Source: Sphingopyxis panaciterrulae (lineage in GTDB: Bacteria > Pseudomonadota > Alphaproteobacteria > Sphingomonadales > Sphingomonadaceae). Taken from it: 64,000 nt of DNA. Position numbers and translations under genes: made by a program. The DNA lies in NCBI RefSeq assembly GCF_014199295.1, contig NZ_JACIJH010000005.1, positions 124,001 to 188,000 of the forward strand, given 5' to 3'. The notes beneath the pieces were generated by a model. It had not been told where the DNA came from and did not search any database. It was given only the letters and a program-made list of their open reading frames with translations. Position 1 is the first letter of the stretch. Each line of letters starts with the position of its first letter. Of this stretch, positions 16,040-49,792 are shown piece after piece.

Positions 16040-17245
16040 TCAGGCGGGAATCCGGTTGAAGGGGACGCCCTTGTCGGGGCGATGGTCCTGCGGCAGGCCG
16101 AGGATCTTCTCGGCGATCGTGTTCAGCAGCATCTCGTCGGCGCCGCCGGCGATGCGGCCCGTCGGTGCATTGATCCAGCTCGCGCCCCAATCCTGCTTGA
16201 CCGGTGCGTGGGCGTCGAAATGTAGCCCCGTCGCGCCCTGCAGGTCGATCGCCAGTTCGGACAGCTTCTGGCGCGAACGCACCGAGACGAGCTTGTTGAG
16301 CGAGCCTTCGGGGCCGGGCTCCATCCCGGCCTGCATCATCGTCATGGCGCGTGCGGTGATCGCGTCGAGCGAATTGCGCATCGCATAATTGCGCGCGATC
16401 TGCTGACGGATGCGGCCGTCCTCGATCGCCGGGCGGCCGTTGATCTCGGCTGCTTCGGCGAGCGCGACGAACAGGTCGAGGCGCGGCCCGAAGCCGGCGC
16501 TGTCGGTGGCGACATAGCGCTCGATCATCAAGGTCGCCATGGCGACCGCGAAACCGCCGCCCACCGGCGACATGCGATGGTCGTCGCCGATCTTCACATC
16601 GTCGAAGAACACTTCGTTGACATGGCTGTCGCCGCCCGCGAGCTTGATCGGGCGCACGGTGACGCCCGGCGCCTTCATGTCGACCCAAAAATAGGTCAGC
16701 CCCTTGTGCTTGGGCACGGTCGGATCGGTCCGCACGACGATGACGCCATAGTCGCTATATTGCGCCCAGCTCGTCCACAGTTTCTGTCCGTTGATCTTCC
16801 AGCCGTTGCCGTCGGTCTCGGCGCGGGTGCGCAGGCCGGCGAGGTCCGATCCACCGGCGGGTTCGGAAAAGAGCTGGCACCAGATTTCCTCGCCGGTCAG
16901 CGCCTTGTGCACGCGCTCCCGGACCCACGCCTTGTCCTCGCAGAAGCGCATGATGATCGGCACCGGCATGCCGAGCGAGATGCTGAAATAGGCGGTCGGC
17001 ATGCCGAACGCCATCTCTTCGCTATCGAAGGCGACCTTCTCGATGGGGCTGAGGCCCTGGCCGCCATATTCGACCGGCCAGTTGATGCCCGAATAGCCCG
17101 CGGCGAAACGCCCCTTGAGATAGGCGCGGCCGAGCGCGAGATCCTCTTCCTCGCTCAAGCCCGCGCGCGCGGCGCGGCCGAAGCGCGGCGCGACCGATTC
17201 CAGCCAGGCGCGCGCTCTTTCGCGATAGGCTTCGACGTCGCTCAT
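16040..17245 (-). CDS. Acyl-CoA dehydrogenase, large-type subunit (pair 1)
   Basis: The 401-residue flavoprotein has the middle-domain motif LFSEPAGGSDLAGLRTRA near residues 127-144 and the C-terminal GGADEMLLNTIAEKILGLP. The arginine-FG-FQ flavin motif of ordinary homomeric acyl-CoA dehydrogenases is not visible here but is present in the neighbouring gene. That split is typical of the heterotetrameric enzymes known from steroid side-chain degradation (for example ChsE4-ChsE5). Start 17245 overlaps the upstream subunit stop as ATGA, implying coupled synthesis of the two subunits. Substrate is inferred only as a bulky acyl-CoA. Confidence 0.92.
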   Translation of the reverse strand: MSDVEAYRERARAWLESVAPRFGRAARAGLSEEEDLALGRAYLKGRFAAGYSGINWPVEYGGQGLSPIEKVAFDSEEMAFGMPTAYFSISLGMPVPIIMRFCEDKAWVRERVHKALTGEEIWCQLFSEPAGGSDLAGLRTRAETDGNGWKINGQKLWTSWAQYSDYGVIVVRTDPTVPKHKGLTYFWVDMKAPGVTVRPIKLAGGDSHVNEVFFDDVKIGDDHRMSPVGGGFAVAMATLMIERYVATDSAGFGPRLDLFVALAEAAEINGRPAIEDGRIRQQIARNYAMRNSLDAITARAMTMMQAGMEPGPEGSLNKLVSVRSRQKLSELAIDLQGATGLHFDAHAPVKQDWGASWINAPTGRIAGGADEMLLNTIAEKILGLPQDHRPDKGVPFNRIPA

Positions 17246-18330
17246 GCCGCTTTCTCCCGCAGGCGGTCGACGAGGACATCCTCCCAGAAGAAGAGGTTGC
17301 CCTGTTCGACCGCGAGGCTGCGCGCGCGGCGCATGTGAAGATGAAGCCCCGCTTCCCAGGTCACCCCGATACCGCCGTGAATCTGGACGCAATCGCGCGC
17401 CGCCGTATCATAGCCGTCGGTGGCCTGGATACGCGCCGCGGCGGCGGCGGCGATGAAGTCGTCCTGCCCCGCGCGCGAAGCGGCATGGACTGCTCCCGCG
17501 CGCGCCAGCTCGACGAGCGCGTAGATTTCGGCGATGCGGTGTTTCACCGACTGGAAGGCGCCGATCGGCTGGCCGAAGGCGCGCCGGGTCAGTGCATAGT
17601 CGCGTGCGGTTTCGAGCAGCTTTTCGGCCCCGCCGGTCTGTTCGTGCGCGGTGACGACTGCCTGCAGCGCGAGGATATGGACCGCCGCCGCTTCGGCGAC
17701 GGAACCCCGCAGCAATTCGATTGCCGGCGTCTCCGCAAAGACGAGGTCGGCGGCGCAGCGACTGTTGTCGAAGCTCTCGATTGGCCGGCGCTCGACATCC
17801 GCAAGCTCGGCGACCGCGAGGATCATTTCGTCTCCGTCTCGGGCGGTCACGATCGCGACGCCCGCGCGGGTGCCGCCGGTCACCGCAGACTTGGTCCCGC
17901 GCAGCTTGCCGTCCTCGAAAGCGAGGCCGCCGCCGATGACCCGTTGCCCCTCGATAAAGGCGACCGCCCCGATCGCCTCGCCCGCCGCCAGCACGGGCAG
18001 CCAGCGCTGCTTCAGCGCTTCGTCGCCATGATCGAGGATCGCGCGCGCGGCACCGAAGCTTGCGGTAAGGAAGGGCGCCCCCGACAGGCTGCGGCCCGCC
18101 TGATGGGAGACGAGCCCAAGCTCGACGAGCCCCAGGCCGAGCCCGCCATAAGCTTCGGGCAACGCGACCGCGGTCCAGCCCTGTTCCTTCGCGATGGTCC
18201 AGAAGGGCTCGAAGATCGCGTCCCGGGTTTCGAGCAGCGGGAGCAGCGCTTCGGTCGTGACATGGGCTTCGAGGATGCGGCGCGACTCGCTCGCGATCGC
18301 CTGCTGCCCCTCGTCGTACAGGATCGACAT
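17242..18330 (-). CDS. Acyl-CoA dehydrogenase, small-type subunit (pair 1)
   Basis: The 362-residue partner of the overlapping downstream gene has a reduced middle domain without the SEPxxGSD motif. It keeps the flavin-side motifs RRAFGQPIGAFQSVKHRIAE (about 272-291) and QIHGGIGVTWEAG (about 324-336). These complement what is missing from the large-type subunit, which supports a shared FAD site between the two chains. It follows the crotonase gene by 13 bases in a leftward operon that starts at the motif near 19190. Confidence 0.9.
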   Translation of the reverse strand: MSILYDEGQQAIASESRRILEAHVTTEALLPLLETRDAIFEPFWTIAKEQGWTAVALPEAYGGLGLGLVELGLVSHQAGRSLSGAPFLTASFGAARAILDHGDEALKQRWLPVLAAGEAIGAVAFIEGQRVIGGGLAFEDGKLRGTKSAVTGGTRAGVAIVTARDGDEMILAVAELADVERRPIESFDNSRCAADLVFAETPAIELLRGSVAEAAAVHILALQAVVTAHEQTGGAEKLLETARDYALTRRAFGQPIGAFQSVKHRIAEIYALVELARAGAVHAASRAGQDDFIAAAAAARIQATDGYDTAARDCVQIHGGIGVTWEAGLHLHMRRARSLAVEQGNLFFWEDVLVDRLREKAA

Positions 18331-18343
18331 GCGGCGGGGCCTC

Positions 18344-19144
18344 TCAGCGGATCGTGAATTTCTTGGCCTTGTCGGCCATCAGCGCGGCCCGGTCGACCTG
18401 CGGAACGCCGACCGGGTTGCCGATCTGGCAATATTTGAGCCCCTGCTGCAGCGCGACGCTGCGCGGCAGGTCGAGCGACTGCCAGATGGCCTTCAGCGAA
18501 CCCGCGGTGGCCGCCGGTGGCTTGGCGGCGATGGCGGCCGCCAGTTCCTCCGCGCGCGGCCACAATTCGTCGCGCGTCGTGATCTCGCTCACCAGCCCGA
18601 TGCGCAGCGCCGTGCCCGCGCCGATCCGCTCGTCGTTGCCGAGCAGCACCATGCGCAGCACATCGTGAAGCGGCATGTGATAGGTCATGCCGATCGGTTC
18701 GAGCGCGCTCGTCATCCCATAGGTGACGTGCGGGTCGAAGAAGGTCGCGTCTTCGGAGCAGATGATGATGTCGCTCTCGTTGAGCCAATAGAAGGCGCCG
18801 CCCGCCGCCATGCCGTGAACCGCGGCGATCACGGGCTTCCAGCAGTTCATCGACTTGGGGCCAAGAGTATTACCGGGGTCCTCGCAGTGCCAGATGTTGT
18901 CGAGTTCGACGACCGCCTGTCCCGGCTTCTGCGATTCCTTGACGTCGACGCCGGTACACCACGCCTTGCCCGGCGCGGCGCGCAGGACGCAGCAGTGGAT
19001 GTCGTCGGTGCGCGCAATCCACTTCCACAGATATTCGAATTCGGTCATCATCTGCCGGGTGAAGCTGTTCATCGCCTCGGGCCGATTCAGGGTGATCGTT
19101 GCGACATGGTCGGCGACGTCGACCAGGATGGTTTCATATTGCAT
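18344..19144 (-). CDS. Crotonase-family protein (enoyl-CoA hydratase/isomerase-like)
   Basis: The 266-residue crotonase has a substrate-loop WCTGVDVKES and an oxyanion-hole segment HGMAAGGAFYWLNESD near the middle. By eye, both catalytic glutamates of true enoyl-CoA hydratases are replaced (the GCELAL-equivalent Glu by Tyr; the PE pair lies in FFDPHVTYG). It may therefore be an isomerase, a hydrolase, or a hydratase with altered chemistry. Start 19144 (MQYETILVD) follows GGGAGAGG; an alternative ATG at 19168 adds eight residues. It is first in the leftward operon and diverges from the next dehydrogenase pair over a shared motif. Confidence 0.85.
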   Translation of the reverse strand: MQYETILVDVADHVATITLNRPEAMNSFTRQMMTEFEYLWKWIARTDDIHCCVLRAAPGKAWCTGVDVKESQKPGQAVVELDNIWHCEDPGNTLGPKSMNCWKPVIAAVHGMAAGGAFYWLNESDIIICSEDATFFDPHVTYGMTSALEPIGMTYHMPLHDVLRMVLLGNDERIGAGTALRIGLVSEITTRDELWPRAEELAAAIAAKPPAATAGSLKAIWQSLDLPRSVALQQGLKYCQIGNPVGVPQVDRAALMADKAKKFTIR

Positions 19145-19180
19145 GGCCAGCGAATCCTCTCCCGGCATTTCTCATGGTTG

Positions 19181-19198: not shown

Positions 19199-19235
19199 CT
19201 ATGACACAGACGGCAACAACTGGGCAAGTCCTTCG

Positions 19236-20327
19236 ATGAATTTCGACCTTAGCGATGAACAGAAAATGCTTGGCGAGCAAGCCCGCGCGCTGCTTGCCGA
19301 CCTGTCGCCGTTCGACCGGCTTCGCGGTCTGATCGATTCGGGCGCGGAGTGGGACGAACCGCTGTGGCGCGCGCTCGCCGAGATGGGCTTCCTGGGGGCC
19401 GCGATCCCCGAGGATCATGGGGGACTGGGGCTCGGCGCGCTCGACCTCGGCGTCATCATGGAAGCGCTCGGCGGCGCCAATGCGGCGGTGCCGTTCATGT
19501 CGTCGATCATATTGGGCGCGGAAGCGATCCGGCTGGCGGGCAGCGAGGCCCAGAAAGCGGCGTGGCTGCCGAAACTCGCATCGGGCGACGCGATCGCGAC
19601 CTTCGCCTATGCCGAGGGACCGGGGTCGGCCTTCGCTACCGGGGCGACGCTGGACGGCGGACAATTGAGCGGCAGCAAATTGCCGGTTGCCGACGGCGGA
19701 ATCGCCGATATCGCGGTCGTGCTCGTCGCCGGCGGCGGTTTCGCGCTGGTCGAACTGAACCAGCCCGGCGTGACGCGAACGCGGCTCGACGGTTTCGATC
19801 AGCTTCGCCCGCATTATCGACTCGATTTCGCCGATGCCGCGGCCGAGGCGATGCCGGGGGCCGGCAAGCTCGACCGGCTGATCGACCAGGCGGCGGTGCA
19901 GGCGGCCTTCGAAGCCGTGGGCGCTGCCGAAGCCTGCCTTCACATGGCGCGCGACTATGCGATGGACCGGCAGATCTTCGGGCGGCCGCTCGGCGGGTTC
20001 CAGGCGATCAAGCACAAGCTCGCCGATATCGCGGTCGCGACCGAACTCGCGCGGTCGAACGCCTATTATGGCGGCTGGGCAGCGGAATCCTCCCCCGACG
20101 ACCTCCCCGCGGCGGCGGCGGCGGCCCGGCTTTCGGGGATCAAATGCTTCGAGATGGCGGCGCGTGAGAATCTGCAGGTGCATGGCGGTATCGGCTATAC
20201 GTTCGAGGCGAACTGCCATTTCTATTACCGGCGCGAGCGGCTGCTGGCGGTGCATCTCGGCAATCGCGGCTTCTGGGCCGACCGGCTGCTGAACGCGCAG
20301 CCCGGTGCGCAAGGAAAGGCGGCGTAG
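19236..20327 (+). CDS. Acyl-CoA dehydrogenase, small-type subunit (pair 2)
   Basis: The 363-residue protein begins MNFDLSDEQKMLGEQARALL, a standard acyl-CoA dehydrogenase N-terminal helix. It carries the flavin motif RQIFGRPLGGFQAIKHKLAD (about 245-264) and VHGGIGYTFEANCHFYYRR near the end, but lacks the SEPxxGSD motif in the middle domain. The following gene supplies that motif, so the two probably form one alpha2-beta2 enzyme. It is the first gene of a two-gene rightward operon starting just after motif copy 1. Confidence 0.92.
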   Translation: MNFDLSDEQKMLGEQARALLADLSPFDRLRGLIDSGAEWDEPLWRALAEMGFLGAAIPEDHGGLGLGALDLGVIMEALGGANAAVPFMSSIILGAEAIRLAGSEAQKAAWLPKLASGDAIATFAYAEGPGSAFATGATLDGGQLSGSKLPVADGGIADIAVVLVAGGGFALVELNQPGVTRTRLDGFDQLRPHYRLDFADAAAEAMPGAGKLDRLIDQAAVQAAFEAVGAAEACLHMARDYAMDRQIFGRPLGGFQAIKHKLADIAVATELARSNAYYGGWAAESSPDDLPAAAAAARLSGIKCFEMAARENLQVHGGIGYTFEANCHFYYRRERLLAVHLGNRGFWADRLLNAQPGAQGKAA

Positions 20328-20328: not shown

Positions 20329-21552
20329 ATGGATTTCAACGACAGCGCTGAGGAAGCCGCCTTCCGTGCCGAGGCCCGTGCCTGGCTCGCTGCTCACGCT
20401 CCCGCGCACGAGCTGCCAGTGGGCGCGAAGATGCCCGACACCGAGGAGGCCGACCGCGGCCGCGCCTGGATGCGGGAACTCTATGCCGGGGGCTGGTCGG
20501 GCCTGACTTTCCCGAAGGAACTCGGCGGCCGCGGCGCGTCGGGGATCGAGGCGGTGATCTTTGCCGAGGAAGAAGGCAAATATCCTCTTCCGAAGGGCCC
20601 CTTCACCTCGATCGGCACCGGCATGGCGCTGCCCGTGATCGCGAAACATGGCACTGCCGAGCAAAAGGCGCGCTTCATCGAGGCGACGCTGAAGGGCGAC
20701 ATCACCTGGTGCCAGCTCTTCTCCGAACCGGCCGCCGGCTCGGACCTTGCGGGACTGCGCACCAAGGCGTCGCGCGCCGACGATGGCAGCGGCGACTGGA
20801 TCGTCAACGGGCAGAAGGTCTGGTCGAGCTGGGCGCATCTTACCGACTGGGGTATCCTCGTCGTCCGCACCGATCCGACCGTGCCCAAGCACAAGGGGCT
20901 GACTTTCTTCGTCGTCGATATGAAGACGCCGGGAATCGAGACCCGCCCGATCCGCCAGATTTCGGGTGCGAGCGAGTTCAACGAGACCTTCCTGACCGAC
21001 GTCCGCATCCCCGATGCCAACCGCCTCGGTGCCGAGGGCGAGGGCTGGGCGTGCTGCATGACGGTGCTGATGGGCGAGCGGCTGGGCTCGGGCGCGCATC
21101 GTAGCGGGATCGAACCCTTGCTGGACTATGCCGCCGCGACCTCCGACGGGCATGGCGGGACGATGCTCGACGATCGCGCGGTTCGCCTGCAATTCGCCGA
21201 CGCGCTCGCCGACGAGCAGGGCGAGCGTTTCTTTCAGGCGCGGCTCCGCACGATGGTGTCGAGGGGCGAGAATCCGGGTGCGCTCGCGGGGATGGTCAAG
21301 CTGGCCTATGCCGGCCGCTATCAAAGGACCAACGGCCTCGCGCTCGAACTGCGCGGCCTTTCGGGGATTGCGCCCGACATGGACGACACCGCAACGGGCG
21401 ACGTCCAGTACGACTATATCTATTCGACCGTGATGCGTATCGCGGGCGGCGCAGACGAGGTGCTGCGCAACCAGATCGCCGAGCGCGTGCTCGGCCTGCC
21501 CGGCGAAATGCGCATGGACAAGGATGTGCCGTTCGAGGCGCTGAAGGGCTGA
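20329..21552 (+). CDS. Acyl-CoA dehydrogenase, large-type subunit (pair 2)
   Basis: The 407-residue protein has WCQLFSEPAAGSDLAGLRTK near residues 126-145 and ends in GGADEVLRNQIAERVLGLPG. It resembles the large-type subunit of pair 1, including the shared phrase DPTVPKHKGLTFF. The ATG at 20329 begins one base after the small-subunit stop and sits close to AAGGAAAGG, so the genes are coupled. The operon ends at a GC-rich hairpin facing the convergent ligase gene. Confidence 0.92.
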   Translation: MDFNDSAEEAAFRAEARAWLAAHAPAHELPVGAKMPDTEEADRGRAWMRELYAGGWSGLTFPKELGGRGASGIEAVIFAEEEGKYPLPKGPFTSIGTGMALPVIAKHGTAEQKARFIEATLKGDITWCQLFSEPAAGSDLAGLRTKASRADDGSGDWIVNGQKVWSSWAHLTDWGILVVRTDPTVPKHKGLTFFVVDMKTPGIETRPIRQISGASEFNETFLTDVRIPDANRLGAEGEGWACCMTVLMGERLGSGAHRSGIEPLLDYAAATSDGHGGTMLDDRAVRLQFADALADEQGERFFQARLRTMVSRGENPGALAGMVKLAYAGRYQRTNGLALELRGLSGIAPDMDDTATGDVQYDYIYSTVMRIAGGADEVLRNQIAERVLGLPGEMRMDKDVPFEALKG

Positions 21553-21604: not shown

Positions 21605-23089
21605 TCAGGCCGCCCGGCGCGCCTCAGCCGCCTTCGCCAGTGGCTCCGCCAGTTCCTTCTTCAGGATCTTGCCATTGGGGTTGAGGGGCATCGCATCGAT
21701 GATGAGGAGCGTGCGCGGCACCTTGTTGTCGGCCAGATGCTCGCGGCAGAAGGCGATGATCTCGTCGGGCTCGGTGCGCTGCCCGGGGCGCAGCGTGACC
21801 GCAGCGGCGATATCCTCGCCCAGAACCTCGTGCGGCACGCCGACCACCGCCGCCTGCTGCACCGCCGGATGGAGATGGAGCGCGGTCTCGATCTCGAGCG
21901 GCGTGATGTTGTAGCCGCCGCGGATGATCAGTTCCTTCGACCGCCCGGCCATGATCAGATCGCCATCCTCGTCGACGAAGCCGAGGTCGCCGGTCTTGGT
22001 CCAGCCGCCCTTGAAGCTTTGCGCCGTCGCTTCGGGATCGTTCCAGTATCGGCGCGGATGTTTCTGCCAGCCATAGATTTCGCCGACGACGCCGGGTTCG
22101 GTGACGATATGGCCGTTTTCGTCGCGGATCTGCATGTGCGCGGGCAGCTTGCCGACGCATCCGGGCTTCATCACCTGTTCCTGGCTGTTCGTGCCGAGCC
22201 CGACGCCGCCTTCGGACATGCCATAGCTGTTGCGGATGCGCAGGTGCGGCCACAGCTTCGCGGCGCGCATCACCGAATCGTGCGGCAGCGGCGCGGTGCC
22301 CGTCATCAGATATTTGACCCCCGTGAGGTCGTAATCGCCGACGTCGGGATGATCGAGCACGAGCCGCAGCATCGAGGGCACCAGATAGATGAGGTTCGGG
22401 CGCATTTCTCTCGTCAGCTCGAGAAAGCCCTTGGGGTCGAACTTCGGCTGAGTGATCGCCTTGGCCCCGCCGCGTGCAGGCAGCATGACGATGCCGATAT
22501 TGCCGCCCGATCCGGTGAGCGGCAGCGCGTTCAGGGTCGAGCGCGAGCGGTCCTGATTATAGCCGGTGACACCTGTCATCAGGTCGGGATGCGATACCAC
22601 GACGCCCTTGATCTTGCCGGTCGTTCCCGACGTGCCGAGGATTTCGGCGTCGGCATCGGGGTCGAGGCTGGCCTGATCGGGGAGCGCGGACAGGTCGCGC
22701 GGCATCGCGTCGACGTGCCAACAGCCGGCGAGATCGAGGGTCTTCACCAGATCGGGTGCGTCGGTCAGGCAGAAGCGTGGTTCGCACAGCGCGGCATAGT
22801 CGGCGATTTCTCTGGGATTGAGGCGCGTGTTGATCGGACAGGCGATGCCGCCGGCGCGGAACACCGCGAACACCGCGATCGCCATTTCGACCGCGCGCGC
22901 GTTGCTGATCGGCAGGAAGACGCGGTCGCCGGGGACGAGCCCCGCCGCCGCTAGCCCGCCGCCGACCTCGTCGGCTTCGCGGTCCCACTCGGCGAAGCTG
23001 ATCTGCCGCCTGGTATCGTCGTGCGCGATCTCATTGGCCTGATGCGACGCGCGCACCTTCAATGCATCGCTGATGCGGCGAACTTCCAT
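21605..23089 (-). CDS. AMP-forming acyl-CoA synthetase (ligase 1)
   Basis: The 494-residue ANL-superfamily enzyme should activate a carboxylic acid to its CoA thioester through an acyl-AMP. Motifs include the P-loop TSGTTGKIKG, SYGMSEGG, GDLGFVDEDGD followed by RSKELIIRGGYNI, and the catalytic Lys in NPNGKILKKEL at the C-terminus. Start 23089 (ATG, MEVRRISDALKV) follows AAGGGGATAG; a GTG at 23113 would add eight residues. It is a single-gene leftward unit divergent from the hot-dog dehydratase over motif copy 2. It may feed acid substrate into the pathway. Confidence 0.92.
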   Translation of the reverse strand: MEVRRISDALKVRASHQANEIAHDDTRRQISFAEWDREADEVGGGLAAAGLVPGDRVFLPISNARAVEMAIAVFAVFRAGGIACPINTRLNPREIADYAALCEPRFCLTDAPDLVKTLDLAGCWHVDAMPRDLSALPDQASLDPDADAEILGTSGTTGKIKGVVVSHPDLMTGVTGYNQDRSRSTLNALPLTGSGGNIGIVMLPARGGAKAITQPKFDPKGFLELTREMRPNLIYLVPSMLRLVLDHPDVGDYDLTGVKYLMTGTAPLPHDSVMRAAKLWPHLRIRNSYGMSEGGVGLGTNSQEQVMKPGCVGKLPAHMQIRDENGHIVTEPGVVGEIYGWQKHPRRYWNDPEATAQSFKGGWTKTGDLGFVDEDGDLIMAGRSKELIIRGGYNITPLEIETALHLHPAVQQAAVVGVPHEVLGEDIAAAVTLRPGQRTEPDEIIAFCREHLADNKVPRTLLIIDAMPLNPNGKILKKELAEPLAKAAEARRAA

Positions 23090-23128
23090 TGCGGCACTAT
23101 CCCCTTGCTTCACTGATAGGGATGTATT

Positions 23129-24451: not shown

Positions 24452-24495
24452 CCCGTTCGCCGTTCGCTTCGAAAACGGGTCGGGGAGGCTTGGCG

Positions 24496-40769: not shown

Positions 40770-40873
40770 AGAGAGGAAATTGCCCCGATGTTGCGGGGTT
40801 GCGTCGAAAGCCCTAATGGCAGCAAGAGCGAAACGGGTTTGAAGCATAGCCGGGCAGGGGCAGGAATTTGCAG

Positions 40874-41644: not shown

Positions 41645-43152
41645 GTTCCAATTTCATCGAGGCGATGATCGCGGCCGTCGCGCGCGCGCCAGCGGCTTCG
41701 CTGACCGTCGCATCCGACGTCCGCCCCGGCGAGACGACACTGGGTGCGGTGGTTTCGGCGGGACGGCGGATGGGGACGCGGATGACGGCCTCGGGGATCG
41801 AGCCGGGCGATATCGTCGCCTGCATGCTCCCCAATTGGCGCGAATGGCTCGTCGTCGCGGTTGCGGCGGCGCAGGCTGGCGCCGTGATGCTGCCGGTCGT
41901 CACCATCTATGGCGCGAAGGAACTGGGTTTCATCCTGCGCCAGTCGGGTGCGAAATGGCTGTTCACCCCCGATCGCTTCCGCAATGTCGATTATGTGCGG
42001 GTCGTCGCGGACTGCGGGGCCCTTTCCGCCCTTGAACGCCATATAGCGACCGGCCCCGCATTCGACGCGCTCGAGGCGGATGGGCCGATCGCCGAACCCG
42101 CGTTCCGGTCGGCGGCCGACCTTTCGCTCCTCGTCTATACGTCGGGTACCACCGCCGACCCGAAGGGCGTCATGCATTCGGCGCGCGGCTTTCTCGCCGA
42201 TATGGAGACGATGCATATGCTGCGCAGCGGCAGCGACGACGATGCGGTCATCTCGCCGTGGCCGCCGGGGCATGTCGCGGGCGCGCTGTCGATGTATCGC
42301 TTCCTGACGCAGGGCGTGCCGTTGGTGCTGATGGATCAGTGGGACCCGGCGCGCGCCGCCGAACTGATCGACAGGCATCGCATCACATCCTCATCGGGGA
42401 CGCCCTTTCATCTGTCCGGCATGATCGCCGCGGCCGATGCGAACGGCCACGACCTCTCGTCGCTCCGTCAGTATCTGGTCGGCGCGGCGCCCGTTCCGGC
42501 ATCGCTGATCGAGCGCTGCCAGGCCCAGGGTCTCGCCGTCTATCATTGCTACGGGTCGAGCGAACATCCGACCGTGACGTCGGGCGTCGTCGACGATCCG
42601 CTCGACAAGCAGCTCCATACCGAGGGACGCGCGATCGCCGGGTCCGAAATGCGCTTCGTCGACGACGACGGCCATGACGTGCCGTCCGGTGCCGACGGCG
42701 AGATCTGCACGCGCGGGCCGGAGCTTTTTCTCGGTTATCTCGACCCCGCGCTCAATGCGGGCGCCTTCCTGCCGGGCGGCTGGTACCGCACCGGCGACAT
42801 CGGCCGGCTCGATGCCGAGGGCTATCTGCTCATCACCGACCGCAAGAAGGATATCATCATTCGCGGCGGCGAGAATATCTCGTCGAAGGAAGTCGAGGCG
42901 CTGCTGCTTGCGCATCCGAAGATTGTCGACGCCGCGGCGGTCGCAGCTCCCGACGAGCGGATGGGCGAGGTCGTGCGCGCCTGCATTGTGCTGGTGCCGG
43001 GCGCGTCGCTGACGCTCGACGAACTGCGCGACCATTTCGCCGCAGCGGGAATTGCCAGGCAGAAAACCCCCGAACGGCTCAGCATCCTCAACGAATTGCC
43101 GCGCAATGCGTCGGGCAAGGTGCTGAAGCACGAACTGCGGCGAAACCCCTAG
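41641..43152 (+). CDS. AMP-forming acyl-CoA synthetase (ligase 2)
   Basis: The 503-residue ANL enzyme has the P-loop YTSGTTADPKGVMHS, CYGSSEHP, YRTGDIGRLDAEGYL, DRKKDIIIRGGENIS and catalytic Lys in NASGKVLKHEL. It starts inside the GntR stop (ATGA at 41641), so it is translated with its likely regulator. It should make the CoA ester of an early pathway acid. It converges on the leftward SDR gene with a four-base overlap. Confidence 0.93.
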   Translation: MSSNFIEAMIAAVARAPAASLTVASDVRPGETTLGAVVSAGRRMGTRMTASGIEPGDIVACMLPNWREWLVVAVAAAQAGAVMLPVVTIYGAKELGFILRQSGAKWLFTPDRFRNVDYVRVVADCGALSALERHIATGPAFDALEADGPIAEPAFRSAADLSLLVYTSGTTADPKGVMHSARGFLADMETMHMLRSGSDDDAVISPWPPGHVAGALSMYRFLTQGVPLVLMDQWDPARAAELIDRHRITSSSGTPFHLSGMIAAADANGHDLSSLRQYLVGAAPVPASLIERCQAQGLAVYHCYGSSEHPTVTSGVVDDPLDKQLHTEGRAIAGSEMRFVDDDGHDVPSGADGEICTRGPELFLGYLDPALNAGAFLPGGWYRTGDIGRLDAEGYLLITDRKKDIIIRGGENISSKEVEALLLAHPKIVDAAAVAAPDERMGEVVRACIVLVPGASLTLDELRDHFAAAGIARQKTPERLSILNELPRNASGKVLKHELRRNP

Positions 43153-43943
43153 TTTCGCATGATGAACCCGCCGTCGACGTTCAGCGCCTGACCGGTGATC
43201 CAGTCGCCTGCGGGCGAACAGAGCAGCAGCAGCGCGCCGACCAGATCCTGCGGCTGTCCCCGCGGCTGCTTGACGACCCGCGCCATCGCCGCCTGCACGA
43301 AGGGGCTTTCCTCGGGCGTCAGCGCCTTGCCCGCGTCGGACATCGTCATTCCCGGCGCGATCGCGTTCACGTTGACGTTCATTCGCCCGAGCTCGGTCGC
43401 GAGCGTCGTCGTCAGGCCGAGCAGCGCGACCTTGCTGATCCCATAGGGCGTCTGCGCCGGAAAGCCGCCGGCCGAAAGCTGGTTGACGATCTTGCCGCCG
43501 CCGCGCGCCTCGAACAGCGGGACCGCCGCCTTCGAACAGATCAGCGCGCCGGTCAGGTTGATGCGCATCAGCCGGTCGAAGTCGGCGATGCTTGTCTGGA
43601 TCGCGGGGGTGCCGACCGCCTCGACCATCAGTGCGGCATTGTTGACCAGGATATCGAGTCCGCCGAACGCCGCCTCGGCGGTCTCCATCATCGCCGAAAC
43701 CGGTGCCTCGTCGGCGATATCGACCTGTACCGCGATCGCCTTGCCGCCCGCTTCCTCGATCTCGCCCGCGACGCGCTCGGCGCCCTCCTTGTTCAGATCC
43801 GCGACGACGACGCTCGCGCCCGCGTTGGCGAGCCCGATCGCATAGGCGCGTCCGATGCTGTTCCCGCGTCCGCCCGCGCCGGTGACGACCGCGACCTTGC
43901 CGTCGAGGCGGAACTGCTCGTTGGTGAAATCGGCCATCCTCAT
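43149..43943 (-). CDS. Short-chain dehydrogenase/reductase
   Basis: The 264-residue SDR has an extended glycine loop GAGGRGNSIGRA, Asp in VVADLNKEG suggesting NAD, NNAAL, Ser in NQLSAGG and YGISK. It begins MRMADF with the first ATG overlapping the aldehyde dehydrogenase stop; a second ATG at 43937 is possible. It is the last gene of the P450 operon and may oxidise the alcohol made by the P450. Confidence 0.91.
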   Translation of the reverse strand: MRMADFTNEQFRLDGKVAVVTGAGGRGNSIGRAYAIGLANAGASVVVADLNKEGAERVAGEIEEAGGKAIAVQVDIADEAPVSAMMETAEAAFGGLDILVNNAALMVEAVGTPAIQTSIADFDRLMRINLTGALICSKAAVPLFEARGGGKIVNQLSAGGFPAQTPYGISKVALLGLTTTLATELGRMNVNVNAIAPGMTMSDAGKALTPEESPFVQAAMARVVKQPRGQPQDLVGALLLLCSPAGDWITGQALNVDGGFIMRN

Positions 43944-45418
43944 GCCCCCTTCGGAAAGATGGGCGCGCCGACGCCGATGGTGACGGTCTTGTAGTGCAGG
44001 AACTCGTCGATCCCGGCGCGGCCGCCCTCCTTGCCGAAGCCGGAGATGCCGATGCCGCCGAACGGCGTGTGCGGATTGATCTGGAATCCGCCATTATTAT
44101 AGACGCCGCCCGCGTTCAGCCGTTCCGACAGGCGGTGGACGCGCTGCAGGTCGTTCGACTGGATATAGGCGGCAAGGCCGTATTCGCTATTGTTGGCGAT
44201 CGCGACCGCCTCGTCCTCGCTGTGGAATTTCATCACCACGACCGCGGGGCCGAAAATCTCGACCTGGCTGATCTCGTGATCGGGGTCGGCGTCGACGATC
44301 AGCGTCGGCTCGATGAAATTGCCGTCGGCAAGCTCGCCGCCGCAGCGGCCGCCGCCCAGCTCGAACTTCGCCGCGCCATCGGCCTTGGCGCGCTCGAACA
44401 TGCCCAGGATGCGGTCGACCGCGGCCTTGTTGATGACGGGGCCGACCGCAACCGTCGGGTCCATCGGGTCGCCGACCTTGAACCGGCCGATGATCGCTCT
44501 GAGCCTCGCGACGAAATCGTCATAGACGTCGGCGTGGACGAGCTGGCGGGTGGGCAGCGCGCAGCCCTGGCCGGACAGGCAGCCGACGGTCCAGAAGACC
44601 GCGCGTTCGGCCGCCGCCTGCAGGTCGCAGTCGGGAAAGACGAGGCTCGCCGACTTGCCGCCCAGTTCCATGACCGACGGCTTGATCTCCTCTGCGCACG
44701 CCGCGAGGATCTTGCGCGCGGTGATCGGGCCGCCGGTGAAGCTGATCTTGCGGATCTTCTTGTGCCGGACGATCGCCTCGCCGCATTCGGCATTGCCGGG
44801 CAGGATCGACAGCACGCCGTCGGGCACCCCGGCTTCCTTGCACAATTGCGCGAACAGTTCGGGCGCGAAGGGCGTGATCTCGGCGGGCTTGCAGATCACG
44901 CAATTGCCCGCCGCGAGCGCCGCGGCGACCTTCATGCCGAGCGAGATCAGCGGCCCGTTCCAGGTGATGATGATGCCGACGATGCCGATCGGTTCGGGTA
45001 CGGTATAGGAAAGCTCGCCGCGCGTATCGAAGGTGCTGATGAGCTCGCCCGACATCTTGTCGCACCAGCCGGCATAATAGCGCGTCCAGCCGACCGCGGT
45101 GTCGACCCCACGCTCGCCGACCATCAGCGTCGTGCCGCCGTCGAGCGCGGCCATTTCGGCAAGACGGGTCCTGTTCGCCTCGAGCAGGTCGGCAAGGCGG
45201 TTCAATATGTCGCGCCGTGCCTCGGGCGGGGTGCGGCGCCAGTCGTCCTGCGCCGCCGCGGCCTTGGCGACCGCTTCCTCGACCTCGCGCGCGCCGGCGA
45301 GCGGTATGTCCGCCTGAACCTCCTGCTTCACCGGATGCAGGTGCGGGTGCGTCCCGCCGCTGCCGCTCGTCCTCTGTTCGTGCCCCAGGTGCAGGTGGAC
45401 TGCAGGTGCGCTGGCCAT
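43940..45418 (-). CDS. Aldehyde dehydrogenase
   Basis: The 492-residue NAD(P)-dependent enzyme has Asn154 in TWNGPL, Glu251 in ELGGKSA and the nucleophile Cys286 in GQGCALPTR. The N-terminus is unusually His-rich (HLHLGHEQ and THPHLHP in the first 30 residues), which is not a family feature. Start 45418 follows an AAAAGGA purine tract; an in-frame start at 45475 lacks one. Between VOC protein and SDR in a P450 operon, it likely turns an aldehyde formed by oxidation into the acid for CoA activation. Confidence 0.93.
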   Translation of the reverse strand: MASAPAVHLHLGHEQRTSGSGGTHPHLHPVKQEVQADIPLAGAREVEEAVAKAAAAQDDWRRTPPEARRDILNRLADLLEANRTRLAEMAALDGGTTLMVGERGVDTAVGWTRYYAGWCDKMSGELISTFDTRGELSYTVPEPIGIVGIIITWNGPLISLGMKVAAALAAGNCVICKPAEITPFAPELFAQLCKEAGVPDGVLSILPGNAECGEAIVRHKKIRKISFTGGPITARKILAACAEEIKPSVMELGGKSASLVFPDCDLQAAAERAVFWTVGCLSGQGCALPTRQLVHADVYDDFVARLRAIIGRFKVGDPMDPTVAVGPVINKAAVDRILGMFERAKADGAAKFELGGGRCGGELADGNFIEPTLIVDADPDHEISQVEIFGPAVVVMKFHSEDEAVAIANNSEYGLAAYIQSNDLQRVHRLSERLNAGGVYNNGGFQINPHTPFGGIGISGFGKEGGRAGIDEFLHYKTVTIGVGAPIFPKGA

Positions 45419-45437
45419 GATGTCATCCTTTTCTTTT

Positions 45438-45872
45438 TCAGGTGTTTTCCGGCGTCGCCAAGACAAGCCCGCCATCGGCGCCGGGTCGCATCACCGGACT
45501 CCAGACGATCTCCCAGCCATTGCCTTCGGGGTCGGCGAAATAGCCCGAATAGAGACCGCCATCGCGGTCACGGATCGGGCTGGTAATTGTGGCGCCGACG
45601 GCGATCGCCTTGGCGAATTGCGTGTCGACGTCGGCCTTGGTTTCGACGAAGATCGCGTTCACGGCGCGCGGCACGGCGGAAAGGTCGATGCCGCTTTCTG
45701 CGGCCAGATAATCGCGCGGCACGAACACGATCACCACCGTTCCGGCGCGCAGCATGAGCGAGCCCGGTACCTCGGGACCCCAACTCCGCCAGCCGAGACC
45801 GTCGATGTAGAATTTACGCAAGGTCTCCATGTCGCCCGCTGGCACCATGAGCATATGCACGGCCTGATCCAT
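45438..45872 (-). CDS. VOC (glyoxalase/bleomycin-resistance) family protein
   Basis: The 144-residue protein has the paired beta-alpha-beta-beta-beta units of the VOC superfamily: HMLMVPAGDMETLRKFYIDG at the start and YSGYFADPEGNGWEIVWSP near the end. The possible metal ligands are His6 and a Glu in NGWEIVW. It could be an isomerase, a dioxygenase or a binding protein. Start 45872 (MDQAVHML) follows GGGAG. It lies five bases after the P450 gene. Confidence 0.88.
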   Translation of the reverse strand: MDQAVHMLMVPAGDMETLRKFYIDGLGWRSWGPEVPGSLMLRAGTVVIVFVPRDYLAAESGIDLSAVPRAVNAIFVETKADVDTQFAKAIAVGATITSPIRDRDGGLYSGYFADPEGNGWEIVWSPVMRPGADGGLVLATPENT

Positions 45873-45877: not shown

Positions 45878-47065
45878 TTACTCCCACGCCAGATGCAGAT
45901 GTTCGAGCGCCATCACGCTGCCGCCGCGGCAGCTTTCGTCGCCCTTTTCGATTTGCCGGAAATGGCCGATGCGGCCGAACCACGCGCGATAGAAGACGAT
46001 CAACTCCATCCGCGCGAGATGCAGGCCAAGGCAGGTGTGGATGCCCGATCCGAACGCCGCGTGGCGGTAGAATTGCCGTTCGACCGATACCGTCTTCGGG
46101 TCCTCGGCGAGATCTTCGTCCCAGCCGACGAGCGGCAGCGGCGCGAGGATAGAGTCGCCCGCGAAAAGCCGCACCCCTTCGAGCTCGGTATCCTCCACGA
46201 TATAGCGCGGGGTCGCGACGAAGGCATAGCGGCGCAGCAGTTCCTCGACCATGCTGGGGATCACCACCGGATCGTCGATCGCGCGCTGGCGCAGGCCGTC
46301 GTCATGCGCGAGATGGCGCATGCCGAAGCTCATCGCGTTGGTCACCGTGTCGAGCCCCGCGAGGAACATCAGGAAGCCGATCGACATCAGTTCCTCAAAG
46401 CTCGGCTGGCGGCCGTCGATCTCGCTGGCGATGATCTTCGAGATCATGTCGTCGCGCGGCTCGGCCATCCGCGCCCGGATCAGCTCGGTCAGATGCCCCA
46501 ATATCTGCTGCGCGAGCGCGTTGCGCTCCTCGTTGCTCGCCTGCGAGTTGAAAAAGGAGACGACGAGCCGGCGGAATTCGTCGAACCGCTCCATCGGAAA
46601 ACCGAACAATTCCATGAAGACCGCGACCGGAAGGCGCGAGGCGATGGCGGCGACGAATTCGCATTCGCCGCTCCCCGCCACCTCGCCGAGCAGCCGGTCG
46701 GTCCACTCGGCGACGCGGGCTTCGAGTGGCTCGATCGCCTTCGATTCGAAGAAGGGGCGCAGCATCTGCCGATAGGGCCGGTGCTCGGGCGGGTCGAGCA
46801 TCTCGGGGATCATCTTCGGCTGGTTCGGATTGGGCGGGATGGACAGATAGCGGCTCGAGAAGATTTCCGGGTGCCGCACGACATGCTGCACCGCCGCACC
46901 GGTATTGCACACCCAGTGGCCGCCATGCGCGTTGGTCCAGAAAACCGGCGGTGCGGTCTCCTTCAGCTCCCAATAGCGCGCGTGACAGTCGGCGAGCACG
47001 CCGGGGTCGGCGACATAGTCGAACTCATAGACCGGCGAACGCGCCGGCACCTGCGACTCGGTCAT
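45878..47065 (-). CDS. Cytochrome P450
   Basis: The 395-residue soluble bacterial P450 has the I-helix AGLDT at 236-240 (oxygen activation), ExxR at 275-278 and the heme-ligand motif FGSGIHTCLG with Cys345. It resembles class I P450s of the P450cam/CYP type that need separate ferredoxin and reductase. Neither partner gene is in this window. It probably hydroxylates the hydrophobic growth substrate. It is first in a four-gene leftward operon with VOC, ALDH and SDR, facing a TetR gene. Confidence 0.94.
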   Translation of the reverse strand: MTESQVPARSPVYEFDYVADPGVLADCHARYWELKETAPPVFWTNAHGGHWVCNTGAAVQHVVRHPEIFSSRYLSIPPNPNQPKMIPEMLDPPEHRPYRQMLRPFFESKAIEPLEARVAEWTDRLLGEVAGSGECEFVAAIASRLPVAVFMELFGFPMERFDEFRRLVVSFFNSQASNEERNALAQQILGHLTELIRARMAEPRDDMISKIIASEIDGRQPSFEELMSIGFLMFLAGLDTVTNAMSFGMRHLAHDDGLRQRAIDDPVVIPSMVEELLRRYAFVATPRYIVEDTELEGVRLFAGDSILAPLPLVGWDEDLAEDPKTVSVERQFYRHAAFGSGIHTCLGLHLARMELIVFYRAWFGRIGHFRQIEKGDESCRGGSVMALEHLHLAWE

Positions 47066-47127: not shown

Positions 47128-47688
47128 ATGGCGACGAAGATCGAGATCCCCGCGCGCGATGCGGACCGGACGCGGCAGGCGATCCTTGACGCCGCGCAGC
47201 AGGTTTTCGCCGAAAAGGGCTTTGCGGAGGCGGGGGTGCGCGACATCACCGCGCGCGCGGGCGTCAATCCGTCGCTCGTCAGCCGCTATTTCGGCGGCAA
47301 GCTCAAACTGTTCGAGGCGGCGCTCGATGCCGTGCTCGACGCGCGGCTGATGACCGACCTTCCGCGGCAGGGGTTCGGCCGCCTGATCGTCGCGCGTTTC
47401 GCTGATGAAGACGACCGGGTCAGCCCGCTGCCGATGCTGTTCCGGGCGGCCGCCGACAGCGAGGCGCGCGCGGTGGCGCAGCGCCTGCTCCGCGACCGGG
47501 TGTTCGAACCGTTGCAGAAATGGTTCGGCGGCGAAGGAGCGGATGTGAAGGCGGCGCGCTTCATGATGGTCTCGCTCGGCTTCTTCGCCTATCGCGACCA
47601 ACTGCCGCTCGCGGAATTCGCGGGCGCCGTCGAGCCCCGCCTTCGCCGGTGGCTGGAAGAGGAGTTCCAGGCCATCGTCGATGACTGA
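47128..47688 (+). CDS. TetR family transcriptional regulator
   Basis: The 186-residue regulator has a clear TetR DNA-binding domain (ILDAAQQVFAEKGFAEAGVR, then SLVSRYFGGKLKLFEAAL) and a short ligand domain. It diverges from the P450 operon over a palindrome that is its likely operator. It is convergent with the fourth acyl-CoA dehydrogenase pair, six bases apart. Confidence 0.93.
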   Translation: MATKIEIPARDADRTRQAILDAAQQVFAEKGFAEAGVRDITARAGVNPSLVSRYFGGKLKLFEAALDAVLDARLMTDLPRQGFGRLIVARFADEDDRVSPLPMLFRAAADSEARAVAQRLLRDRVFEPLQKWFGGEGADVKAARFMMVSLGFFAYRDQLPLAEFAGAVEPRLRRWLEEEFQAIVDD

Positions 47689-47694: not shown

Positions 47695-48582
47695 TCAGGC
47701 CGCGAGCAGCGCCGTGCGCTCGGCCGGTGCGACATGCTGCAGCAGATGCGCCCGCTTCAGGCAAAAATGCGGATAGGCCTCGTCGGTCATGCCGATCCCG
47801 CCGTGAATCTGGATATTGGCGCGGCCATTGTCGAGCGCCGCCTGGTCGGCGAGCCGTTTCGCGGCGGCGACATGGAACGCCGCACCGGCATCGCCCGCAT
47901 CGAGCGCGCAGGCGGCATAATAGAGCTGCGACCGCGCGACGGCGCAGCGAACCGCCATGTCGGCGCACAGATGCTTGATCGCCTGGAACCAGCCGATCGG
48001 CCGCTCGAACTGCTCGCGAACCTGTGCATAGGCCGCCGCCATGTCGCGCGCCGCGTCGGCGGCGCCGATGGCATAGGCGGCGGCAAGGATCTGAAGATGG
48101 AGCGCCGCGTGCGGGTGGTCGATAGCCACAATCGTCAACGGACCGGCGATCCGGGTCAATGTCGCCGACTGGTCGAGCGACGGCGCGGATGGCGGCGCCT
48201 CGCCGATCTCGAAATGCCCCAGGGCGCCGCCGAAGAGGCCGAGCGCATGTGTCGCTCCCTCGCCATCGAAGAGGCGCGCGCCGCCGTCCGCGGGCAGGGC
48301 GAGCGCAACCTTGACCGTCGCGCCCGTCCAGCGCGCCGCGACCGCGCTGGACAGCAGCGCCACCGGCGCAAGGAAACGGCCGAGCTCGGCGAACACCAGC
48401 GCCTCGGTCGCGTGATCGAGGTCCATTCCCGGCGCGGTCATGCCGGTCCAGCCCATGGCTTCAAGTTGCTGCCACAGCCCGGCGGGACGCGCGCGCGCGG
48501 CTTCGAGCGGCATATTGTCGCGGCACCAGTCGGCGGTTGCAGTCTGGAAGACGGTCTGCTCGTCGTTCGGCGTCAGGTCCAT
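47695..48582 (-). CDS. Acyl-CoA dehydrogenase, small-type subunit (pair 4)
   Basis: The 295-residue protein is the shortest of the four small-type chains. It keeps VREQFERPIGWFQAIKHLCA (about 187-206) and QIHGGIGMTDEAYPHFCLKR near the end, but most of the middle domain is reduced and no SEPxxGSD motif is present. Start 48582 (MDLTPNDEQTVFQTATADW) matches the family N-terminus; an in-frame start at 48765 lies inside the large-type gene. It follows that gene by 58 bases and is the last gene of its operon. Confidence 0.88.
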   Translation of the reverse strand: MDLTPNDEQTVFQTATADWCRDNMPLEAARARPAGLWQQLEAMGWTGMTAPGMDLDHATEALVFAELGRFLAPVALLSSAVAARWTGATVKVALALPADGGARLFDGEGATHALGLFGGALGHFEIGEAPPSAPSLDQSATLTRIAGPLTIVAIDHPHAALHLQILAAAYAIGAADAARDMAAAYAQVREQFERPIGWFQAIKHLCADMAVRCAVARSQLYYAACALDAGDAGAAFHVAAAKRLADQAALDNGRANIQIHGGIGMTDEAYPHFCLKRAHLLQHVAPAERTALLAA

Positions 48583-48640
48583 GCGGAGGCTTTCGTTCCC
48601 GGGTTCCGGCCCGCGCCGGGGTGCGATGCCCGCTGCGCGC

Positions 48641-49792
48641 TCATCGCGATTTCGGCAGGCCAAGCAGCCGCTCGCCGATGATATCGCGCTGAATCTGCGC
48701 GCTGCCGCCGGCGATGGTCGCGGCGAAACCGCGCAGATAGTCGGCGACGGCATCGTCGTCGCCATAGCGAAAGTCGAGGATGTCGGCCCCTTTCAGCAAC
48801 ACCGCCATGCGCTCCAGCCGCTGGCCGAGTTCGGATGTGAAGAGTCGGATCACCGACGCCTCCGCTCCCGGCTGGCCGGTGCGGACGACATGGGAGATAT
48901 TGCGATAGGTCATCGCACGCACCGCCGCGACCTCGGCGCGCATCTGCGCCAACTGGTCGGCGACGCGATCGTCTTTCATCATGCCGTTCGCGCGCGCCGC
49001 GGCGATCAGCTCCTCGATCTCCTGGCTCTGCTTGACCTGATCGGCGATGAAGCCGGTGCCGCGCTCGAAGCTGAGGGTCGACATCGCCACCTTCCACCCG
49101 TTGCCGAGCCCGCCGACCACATTGGCCAGCGGGATGCGGACATCGTCGTAAAAGACCTCGGCGAACTCGGTCTGCCCCGACATCTTGCGGATCGGCCGCA
49201 CGGTGATTCCCGGCGCGTGCATGTCGCAGATGACCCAGCTCAGTCCAGCGTGCCGCCGCGATCCGTCTTCGGTACGCAGCACCAGTTCCTGCCAGTCGGC
49301 GACATGGGCGAAGCTCGTCCAGATCTTCGATCCGTTGACGATCAGTTCGTCGCCCTCGATCCGCCCGCGCGTCTTGATGCCGGCAAGGTCCGACCCCGCG
49401 CCGGGTTCCGAAAAGCCCTGGCACCAGATCGCCTCGCCCTTCAGGATACGCGGCAGGTGATAGGCTTTCTGCGCCTCGCTCGCATTAAGGATCAGCGTCG
49501 GGCCGCCATGGTTGATGCCGACGAAATTGGCGCCGATCCACGGCGCATGCGCCTTCGCATACTCCTCCAGCCAGACGACCTGCTGGACGATCGACAGCCC
49601 GCGCCCCCCATAGTCGGTCGGCCAGTTGATGCCCGCCCAGCCGGCGTCGAACAGCCGCCGCTGCCACGCCTTGTCGAAATCGATCGCGTCGGCCGCGTTC
49701 AGCGGGCGCTTCTCCGCGGGGACATGGGCGTGCAGCCAGTCGCGGCACGCTTCGCGAAAGCGCGTCTCTTCAAGGGAAAAGCCGATGTCCAT
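48641..49792 (-). CDS. Acyl-CoA dehydrogenase, large-type subunit (pair 4)
   Basis: The 383-residue protein has WCQGFSEPGAGSDLAGIKTR near residues 117-136 and a C-terminal GGSAQIQRDIIGERLLGLPK. It should pair with the following small-type chain. Its start shares a base with the upstream SDR stop. The operon order from 51481 leftward is crotonase, dienoyl-reductase-like SDR, large-type and small-type dehydrogenase. Confidence 0.92.
   Translation of the reverse strand: MDIGFSLEETRFREACRDWLHAHVPAEKRPLNAADAIDFDKAWQRRLFDAGWAGINWPTDYGGRGLSIVQQVVWLEEYAKAHAPWIGANFVGINHGGPTLILNASEAQKAYHLPRILKGEAIWCQGFSEPGAGSDLAGIKTRGRIEGDELIVNGSKIWTSFAHVADWQELVLRTEDGSRRHAGLSWVICDMHAPGITVRPIRKMSGQTEFAEVFYDDVRIPLANVVGGLGNGWKVAMSTLSFERGTGFIADQVKQSQEIEELIAAARANGMMKDDRVADQLAQMRAEVAAVRAMTYRNISHVVRTGQPGAEASVIRLFTSELGQRLERMAVLLKGADILDFRYGDDDAVADYLRGFAATIAGGSAQIQRDIIGERLLGLPKSR

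Follow-up and report, generated by a model that had tools for sequence, protein, structure and literature searches.

A gene island of Sphingopyxis panaciterrulae probably encodes, to judge from its sequence, four different α2β2 acyl-CoA dehydrogenases (ACADs) that take part in degrading a bulky substrate, cyclic or branched and most likely an isoprenoid other than a steroid. The island lies in a 64,000-nucleotide stretch of contig NZ_JACIJH010000005.1 (positions 124,001 to 188,000; G000:C5:124001-188000 in our labelling), which is called the window below and belongs to a genome of 4.43 Mb that is 99.99% complete. The original prediction had placed four adjacent ACAD gene pairs in one 34-kb stretch of the window, and these are indeed real genes where they were proposed. 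Enzymes of this kind are known; the pathway of the island is uncharacterised. No published account of the island was found among the titles and abstract openings listed, a coverage that mostly excluded subscription journals.

Two-chain organization of the four pairs

The pairs are numbered p1–p4, with L for the large (alpha-type) and S for the small (beta-type) chain. Their genes are as follows.

16040..17245, minus strand: p1L, large ACAD subunit (Pfam N-terminal, middle and C-terminal domains; SEPAGGSD; catalytic Glu; top PDB matches Tcur3483 and ChsE4)
17242..18330, minus strand: p1S, small ACAD subunit (Pfam N- and C-terminal domains without the middle one; RRAFGQPIGAFQ and HGGIG; top PDB match Tcur3481)
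19236..20327, plus strand: p2S, small ACAD subunit (Pfam, motifs; nearest NCBIfam model pimD_small, 153 bits vs a cut-off of 653)
20329..21552, plus strand: p2L, large ACAD subunit (Pfam, motifs; matches at E of 1e-150 or below in 23 of 80 genus genomes)
26978..28189, plus strand: p3L, large ACAD subunit (Pfam, motifs)
28194..29186, plus strand: p3S, small ACAD subunit (Pfam, motifs; orthologues of 72–91% in 10 of 35 other genus genomes)
47695..48582, start inferred, minus strand: p4S, small ACAD subunit, acidic variant RxxF(E/D)RPIG (Pfam, motifs)
48641..49792, minus strand: p4L, large ACAD subunit (Pfam, motifs, fold matches of its AlphaFold model)

The two genes of each pair are adjacent on one strand, with intergenic spacings of −4, 1, 4 and 58 bp for p1 to p4, the overlap of p1S and p1L being ATGA. 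Pfam finds the N-terminal, middle and C-terminal domains in all four L chains and the middle domain in none of the four S chains. The motifs are divided in the same way. Thus, SEPxxGSD is found in every L chain and HGGIG in every S chain, as had been predicted; the third motif of the prediction, RxxFG, stood in three of the four S chains only, in the form RxxFGxx(I/L)xxFQ. The exception is p4S, where the region reads REQFERPIGWFQ. We take SEPxxGSD of the alpha chain to face the isoalloxazine side of flavin adenine dinucleotide (FAD), and RxxF and HGGIG of the beta chain to face its ADP-ribose side.

The division extends well beyond this genome. Motifs were counted in tblastn matches of at least 60% identity and at least 85% query coverage, with duplicates removed and the genome’s own copies included. 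SEPxxG(S/T)D was present in 107 of 107 L sequences and none of 109 S sequences, and L..ER in all 107 distinct L sequences (22 + 41 + 33 + 11). In a mixed alignment, the catalytic Glu (the column of ChsE4 E247, numbering derived from the printed alignment; E243 in p4L) was present in all 29 L sequences and in none of the 32 S sequences, the S residues there being 27 Ala, 3 Gln, 1 Gly and one gap, that of p4S. The S motifs do vary: HGGIG is absent from 4 of 22 p1S sequences, many p2S orthologues end the motif with YQ in place of FQ, and all 21 distinct p4S matched sequences, our own copy included, have Glu or Asp instead of the Gly of RxxFG.

Each L chain also appears to have descended together with its S chain. 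Among the other pairs of the genome, the closest paralogues of L and of S partner each other for all four pairs, on contigs C26 (p1), C9 (p2, pair C9b; p4, pair C9a) and C1 (p3, pair C1a), with L/S identities of 81/68, 44/44, 52/42 and 51/33% for p1 to p4, respectively. In no case is the closest relative of an island pair itself in the island. The nearest relatives lie elsewhere in the genome, which argues that no recent local duplication took place, and tandem duplication within the island was rejected. In addition, one 804-aa frame at C1:652-654 kb (L122:6096-8480) is a natural S–L fusion, with the halves in the same order as in CasC (order from PMC8399759); CasC is fused, whereas the window pairs are separate genes.

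An alternative is that the L chains are homotetramers acting alone and that the S chains are decaying or regulatory paralogues. No evidence in its favour was found. The S motifs are largely conserved over many orthologues, and the co-descent of L and S and the gene spacing likewise speak against the idea. We rejected this alternative on the split of Glu and motifs between the chains together with L/S co-descent, and regard it as very improbable. The two-chain architecture of the original prediction is well supported by the Glu/motif split, the co-descent, the natural fusion and the likeness of p4L to alpha subunits of known structure.

Nearest characterized enzymes

In ChsE4-ChsE5, the alpha chain contributes the isoalloxazine site, the Glu and the substrate site, and the beta chain binds the ADP-ribose of FAD (PMC11153573); the α2β2 tetramer has two active sites (PMC8399759). 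The chain split in the window, as far as the sequences tell, is the same as this published split.

Compared with solved chains, the L profile scored 251 bits with Tcur3483, 237 with ChsE4 and 172 with the next chain, a gap that makes the likeness to the first two unlikely to be chance. The S profile placed Tcur3481 first (161 bits), with other ACADs at 142 and ChsE5 at 118. The steroid ACAD Tcur3481-Tcur3483 of Thermomonospora curvata (6wy8/6wy9) thus has a like chain split and an aligned Glu, and tops both the L and the S profiles; in structural alignment Tcur3483 and p4L are 30% identical. With ChsE4-ChsE5 (FadE26-FadE27, Mycobacterium tuberculosis, 4x28), the window L chains align over their full length and Glu247 is conserved, ChsE4 and p4L being 28% identical in structural alignment, whereas the window S chains are no nearer to ChsE5 than to many other ACADs.

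The AlphaFold model of p4L (mean predicted local distance difference test score, pLDDT, of 87) gave its best Z scores with 6wy9_A (37.1), 6wy8_B (35.7), 8hk0_B (34.5) and 4x28_A (34.3). That of p4S has a mean pLDDT of 73; its helical N and C parts are confident, and residues 89–153, at the expected place of the beta-domain, fall below 50. Foldseek ranked 6wy8_C second for the p4S model. Taken over all comparisons of this model, beta subunits do not stand out clearly among the folds it matches.

One difference concerns a glycine. Wild-type Tcur3483 (6wy8) and ChsE4 have Gly at the G363 position, which is where the printed 6wy9, titled a G363A variant, departs from 6wy8; all four window L chains have Ala. 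In the mixed L/S alignment this column is blurred (L: 18 of 29 Ala, 7 Glu, 2 Tyr, 1 Gly, 1 gap). We therefore base the Ala-for-Gly assignment on the count of the I(A/G)GG motif instead, which reads IAGG in 106 of 107 L sequences and IGGG in one.

Naming the subfamilies was also attempted with NCBIfam, where none of the eight chains reached any curated cut-off. The nearest models were pimC_large for all four L chains, IpdE2 for three S chains and pimD_small for the fourth, but the window chains differ from PimC-PimD and IpdE2 in lying far under the curated cut-offs (at best 223 vs 624 bits).

The island and its conservation

Besides the pairs, the island has a gene for a cytochrome P450.

45878..47065, minus strand: CYP101-like cytochrome P450 (PDB matches; same 23 of 80 genomes as p4L)

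At identity of at least 85%, p4L occurs in exactly those 23 of the 80 genus genomes that have the P450 (p4L homologues of 52–57% in five other genomes were left out of this count). The P450 is 84–88% identical across them, and 66% in G017. p2L was found in 22 of the 23, and in G067 (a 70% match); the Ltp2-like aldolase encoded next to the window is likewise shared by 22 of them. For p3S, 60 genomes were searched, of which 36, the window’s own included, are of the genus. Orthologues of at least 72% occur in 11 of the 36, all among the 12 with the P450; matches of 40–53% in further genomes were read as other subfamilies.

p2L and the P450 share a contig in 19 of the 23 P450 genomes (G070, G026 and G081 among them) and are 20–30.3 kb apart in 17 of the 19. 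The other two, G060 and G074, retain both halves of the island although 0.83 and 0.90 Mb, respectively, separate the two genes. Outside this distance count stand G100, G009 and G027, where the genes are on separate contigs, and G018, where the p2L match is absent. That p2, p4, the P450 and the aldolase occur in almost identical sets of 23 genomes, split genomes included, supports one pathway, for a branched or cyclic acyl-CoA. The closest named p2L matches (89–94%) are mostly titled Sphingopyxis, with a few metagenome-assembled genomes titled Alphaproteobacteria, Sphingomonadaceae or Gammaproteobacteria. The p1–p3 core is present in S. panaciterrae and in Sphingopyxis strain PET50. A plasmid DNA search with 16040–36000 gave seven records, none reaching 80% query coverage.

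Pair 1 behaves differently. It has a match at E of 1e-90 or below in 74 of the 80 genus genomes (at least 77% in 73, a partial 67% in G084), and in the three island-free genomes inspected it stands in a same-strand run with a short-chain dehydrogenase/reductase (SDR) and a thiolase. The window genome has a second copy at C26 (L 81%). In G017 no p1 adjoins the island, the sole p1L match being far away at C1:2455230. Since it is near-universal in the genus, duplicated here and distant from the island in G017, pair 1 is not island-specific; it probably belongs to the general gene stock of the genus and sits at the island edge. Pairs 2 and 4 do belong to the island, as, very probably, does pair 3.

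These data bear on the possibility that the window holds a loose collection of general branched- or long-chain β-oxidation genes lying side by side, each pair with its own ordinary substrate. The spread of pair 1 and its absence beside the G017 island would fit this, as would the p2–p3 block without p1 in Novosphingobium-titled loci and the fact that the four pairs are not one another’s closest relatives. So would the number of pairs in the genome. PF02770 has 39 matches, 38 of them above the cut-off and five within the window, and PF00441 has 52 domains, 14 of them without a preceding middle domain. Grouped partly by eye, they give about 15 pairs, namely 13 in which separate genes lie on the same strand, one convergent pair and one fusion; an S-like orphan at C7 was excluded, and one counted S has a degenerate middle domain. 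On the other side stand the nearly single 23-genome set, which holds even where the island is split, and the gene order, which G019 shares and G017 shows in inverted form. We therefore consider a loose collection distinctly improbable and keep to an island with a common purpose, in which four α2β2 enzymes would act.

The number four itself carries less weight than it seems to. Uniform placement of about 15 pairs would put four inside 33 kb with P ~0.002, but catabolic genes cluster, which such placement ignores, so the value is weak evidence; and with about 15 pairs in the genome and pair 1 near-universal and duplicated, four in one island is less striking than it looks. For the same reasons the predicted series of dehydrogenations on one molecule is only partly supported, although the scheme has precedent. 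In M. tuberculosis, ChsE4-ChsE5, ChsE3 and ChsE1-ChsE2 act in successive cycles (PMC6678751), and in Caenibius tardaugens a two-subunit enzyme, Scd4AB, is proposed to act on the side chains of bile salts (PMC12882949). Several heteromeric dehydrogenases working in turn on one molecule is thus a known scheme, and successive dehydrogenation by the window pairs would, by analogy, fit it. What is of interest is the coherent, uncharacterised island more than the number four. The genome also shows that one sphingomonad can have genes for about 15 ACADs of this predicted heteromeric kind.

Steroid or non-steroid substrate

Heteromeric ACADs and Ltp2-type aldolases are easily taken as markers of steroid catabolism, and the island has both. 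Directly right of the window (locus L120) lies the gene of an Ltp2-type aldolase (188 bits with 6ok1). Like the Ltp2-ChsH2 complex of T. curvata (6ok1), it keeps YDHF and the Tyr at TcLtp2 position 344, the second catalytic Tyr (position counted manually), and a ChsH2-type zinc/OB-fold protein (OB_ChsH2_C) comes next after it. It differs in that this ChsH2-type protein has 142 aa and no MaoC match, and in that no KshA was found in the genome of the island. The roles of YDHF and the second Tyr in TcLtp2 are those given in PMC12329534. Ltp2-type aldolases cleave where a tertiary alcohol blocks thiolysis (PMC8399759). According to that review, homologues of Sal1, Sad and Sal2/Ltp2 were not found in a Sphingobium strain, and its table lists them as absent from Chol11. 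The locus further encodes CoA-transferases, another P450 and a second thiolase-like protein, which has YDGF.

The island might degrade steroid side chains (of sterols, bile acids or androgen derivatives). The pairs would then be functional equivalents of ChsE4-ChsE5, ChsE1-ChsE2 or Scd4AB, and the genes for ring degradation would lie in another part of the genome. The closest solved enzymes act on steroids, the Ltp2- and ChsH2-type genes adjoin the island, and successive heteromeric ACADs on one molecule are published for cholesterol. At C1:444 kb there is, moreover, a homologue of KstD, which scores 760 bits with NF009478 (PRK12844; cut-off 789), 391 with NF009479 (cut-off 793) and 307 with 7p18. 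With a Rieske oxygenase and ACAD pairs nearby, this homologue suggests that steroid-type chemistry may exist in the organism.

Other evidence points away from steroids. KshA is one gene required of putative steroid degraders in a genome survey (PMC4810484). It was not found in the genome, where the sole KshA_C match is partial, at 22.6 bits (23.5 with its neighbours; cut-off 23.3). This borderline match was rejected as KshA, being a VanA-type oxygenase (VanA_C 143 vs KshA_C 28.6 bits). KshA_C is matched at E of 1e-20 or below in 48 of 298 genomes of the family, among them the congener G090; these are profile matches and not individually confirmed KshA. The Rieske protein beside the KstD homologue has a glycine betaine monooxygenase model as its nearest, far under the cut-off. 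Furthermore, the Gly of wild-type Tcur3483 and ChsE4 is replaced by Ala in all four L chains, and none of the 59 window open reading frames (ORFs) scanned matches a ring-cleavage-specific Pfam family, though one small protein falls in a superfamily that includes dioxygenases.

45438-45983: small PF00903 protein (glyoxalase/dioxygenase superfamily; Pfam)

Without KshA, the canonical steroid pathway is disfavoured, and we judge a steroid side-chain role for the island unlikely.

The P450 points in another direction. Its best PDB matches are, in this ranking, CYP101J2 and then CYP101D-type and P450cam chains; the substrate of CYP101J2 is 1,8-cineole (PMC5598857). Taking together the lack of KshA, the likeness of the P450 to CYP101J2 and camphor hydroxylases, and the L-chain Ala, we favour, without claiming proof, a non-steroid, terpenoid-like substrate. 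The prediction of a bulky or branched substrate is supported indirectly, through the linked Ltp2/ChsH2-type genes and the CYP101-like P450.

Several points weigh against the overall reading, that of α2β2 enzymes in an island for a non-steroid substrate. Pair 4 deviates from RxxFG. The S profile favours Tcur3481 only modestly, with ChsE5 below several other ACAD chains, and by Z score the p4S model places 6wy8_A at rank 42 (23.4 vs the best of 27.1). The co-occurrence of p3 rests on 36 genus genomes only, and the co-occurrence probabilities ignore phylogeny. Resemblance to CYP101 does not fix a substrate, and the KstD homologue, with its Rieske oxygenase, has three further ACAD pairs in its vicinity, in a region distant from the island.

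That region, C1:432-486 kb (L115-L117), contains the three pairs within 14 kb, a GMC oxidoreductase and three P450-like proteins in addition to the KstD homologue and the Rieske oxygenase.

Proposed pathway and related gene sets

The island would extend from the thiolase at ~14.8 kb to the Ltp2/ChsH2-type aldolase gene pair just past the right end of the window. We propose that the P450 would hydroxylate the substrate, that alcohol and aldehyde dehydrogenases would oxidize the product and that CoA ligation would follow. The heteromeric dehydrogenases would then carry out α,β-dehydrogenation, the product of which would be hydrated and cleaved by thiolysis or, where a tertiary alcohol blocks it, by retro-aldol cleavage. 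In each dehydrogenase the L chain is expected to bind the isoalloxazine end of FAD and the substrate and to supply the catalytic Glu, and the S chain to bind the ADP-ribose end. Each enzyme would be a tetramer with two active sites, as published for ChsE4-ChsE5 and relatives.

A more specific version can be put forward only tentatively: an aerobic pathway that has not been described before may be encoded here, acting on a cyclic isoprenoid other than a steroid with the complete set of enzymes otherwise associated with steroid side chains, and a related set is present on a plasmid of Mycobacterium branderi. That plasmid has an aldolase of 64% identity, a P450 of 37%, an ACAD pair and DUF2889; other related sets are on plasmids of Sphingomonas paeninsulae and Sphingobium sp. 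RAC03. If this version is true, α2β2 dehydrogenases with an Ltp2/ChsH2-type retro-aldolase would be no steroid speciality but a general way round the block that a tertiary carbon poses in acyl-CoAs with rings. In any case, an island that has both supposed steroid markers, although its genome yielded no KshA, cautions against the steroid shortcut and offers a compact, testable enzyme set for finding another substrate class.

On three plasmids from two phyla (L132, L133, L134), a DUF2889 gene is again found close to Ltp2-like and OB-fold genes; the family is scarcely mentioned in the literature searched.

Other genes of the window

The remaining genes of the island are mostly of β-oxidation, dehydrogenase, regulatory and transport families, identified by Pfam unless stated otherwise.

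14772..16022, start inferred, minus strand: thiolase (PRK06025 subfamily), adjoining p1 (Thiolase_N/C; NF004682, 801 bits vs a cut-off of 568); syntenic in Sphingopyxis loci
18344..19168, minus strand: ECH1, enoyl-CoA hydratase family (ECH_1; conserved neighbour)
21605..23113, minus strand: ACS1, acyl-CoA synthetase (AMP-binding; syntenic)
23165..24451, plus strand: MaoC/FAS1-type hydratase (PF13452, PF01575)
24448..25293, plus strand: ECH2, enoyl-CoA hydratase family
25169..26083 (ORF; true start probably downstream), plus strand: ECH3, enoyl-CoA hydratase family (match from residue 52)
26090..26881, minus strand: acyl-CoA thioesterase (4HBT_3/3C)
29190..30560, plus strand: WS/DGAT-family acyltransferase (PF03007/PF06974)
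30557..31615, plus strand: DUF7065/Rv3169-like protein (PF23213, 36.8 bits vs a cut-off of 27; Rv3169_fam under its cut-off)
32547..33560 (start inferred), minus strand: zinc-type alcohol dehydrogenase/quinone oxidoreductase (match on ORF 32547-34400)
34267..35547, minus strand: single-chain ACAD (N-terminal, middle and C-terminal domains in one chain)
35599..36720 (start inferred), minus strand: APH-family kinase, adjoining the single-chain ACAD (PF01636 on ORF 35599-37137)
37163..37597, minus strand: SnoaL-like protein
37590..38450, minus strand: SMP-30/gluconolactonase-type protein
38502..39416, plus strand: SDR dehydrogenase (syntenic in G019 and G017)
39867..40769, plus strand: SDR dehydrogenase (syntenic)
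40868..41644, plus strand: GntR/FCD regulator
41641..43152, plus strand: ACS2, acyl-CoA synthetase
43149..43943, minus strand: SDR dehydrogenase
43940..45475, minus strand: aldehyde dehydrogenase
47128..47688, plus strand: TetR regulator
49792..50793, minus strand: SDR dehydrogenase (syntenic in G019 and G017)
50702..51673 (ORF as listed), minus strand: enoyl-CoA hydratase family (match from residue 75)
51108..52331 (ORF as listed), plus strand: SDR dehydrogenase (match from residue 160)
51890..53089 (ORF as listed), plus strand: SDR dehydrogenase (match from residue 152)
53089..54588, plus strand: ACS3, acyl-CoA synthetase
54761..56200 (ORF as listed), plus strand: SDR dehydrogenase (match from residue 223)
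56201..57016, plus strand: SDR dehydrogenase
57027..58040, plus strand: DUF2889 protein (PF11136)
58171..60609, plus strand: TonB-dependent receptor (syntenic in G019)
60616..61953, plus strand: MFS transporter (syntenic)
61950..63164, minus strand: amidohydrolase (PF04909; syntenic)
63185..63886, plus strand: GntR/FCD regulator (syntenic in G019)

The ACAD at 34267..35547 is the fifth of the island and of the single-chain type. Together with the adjoining APH kinase (34267-36720), it presumably resembles ACAD11 and the Lva 4-hydroxyacyl-CoA systems. A second APH gene, at L120:5018-6394, adjoins a CoA-transferase.

At 11202-13806, an HpaB-like flavin monooxygenase gene is accompanied by a divergent AraC regulator; both NCBIfam HpaB models score the monooxygenase far under their cut-offs. 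The same unit (95% and 86% identical) sits inside the interval between p2L and ACS1 in locus L013, and it may therefore be a mobile accessory of the island. At its left edge (73-3838), the window carries genes unrelated to the island: the last part of one for an AcrB-type efflux protein, and those for a GGDEF protein and an outer-membrane efflux protein.

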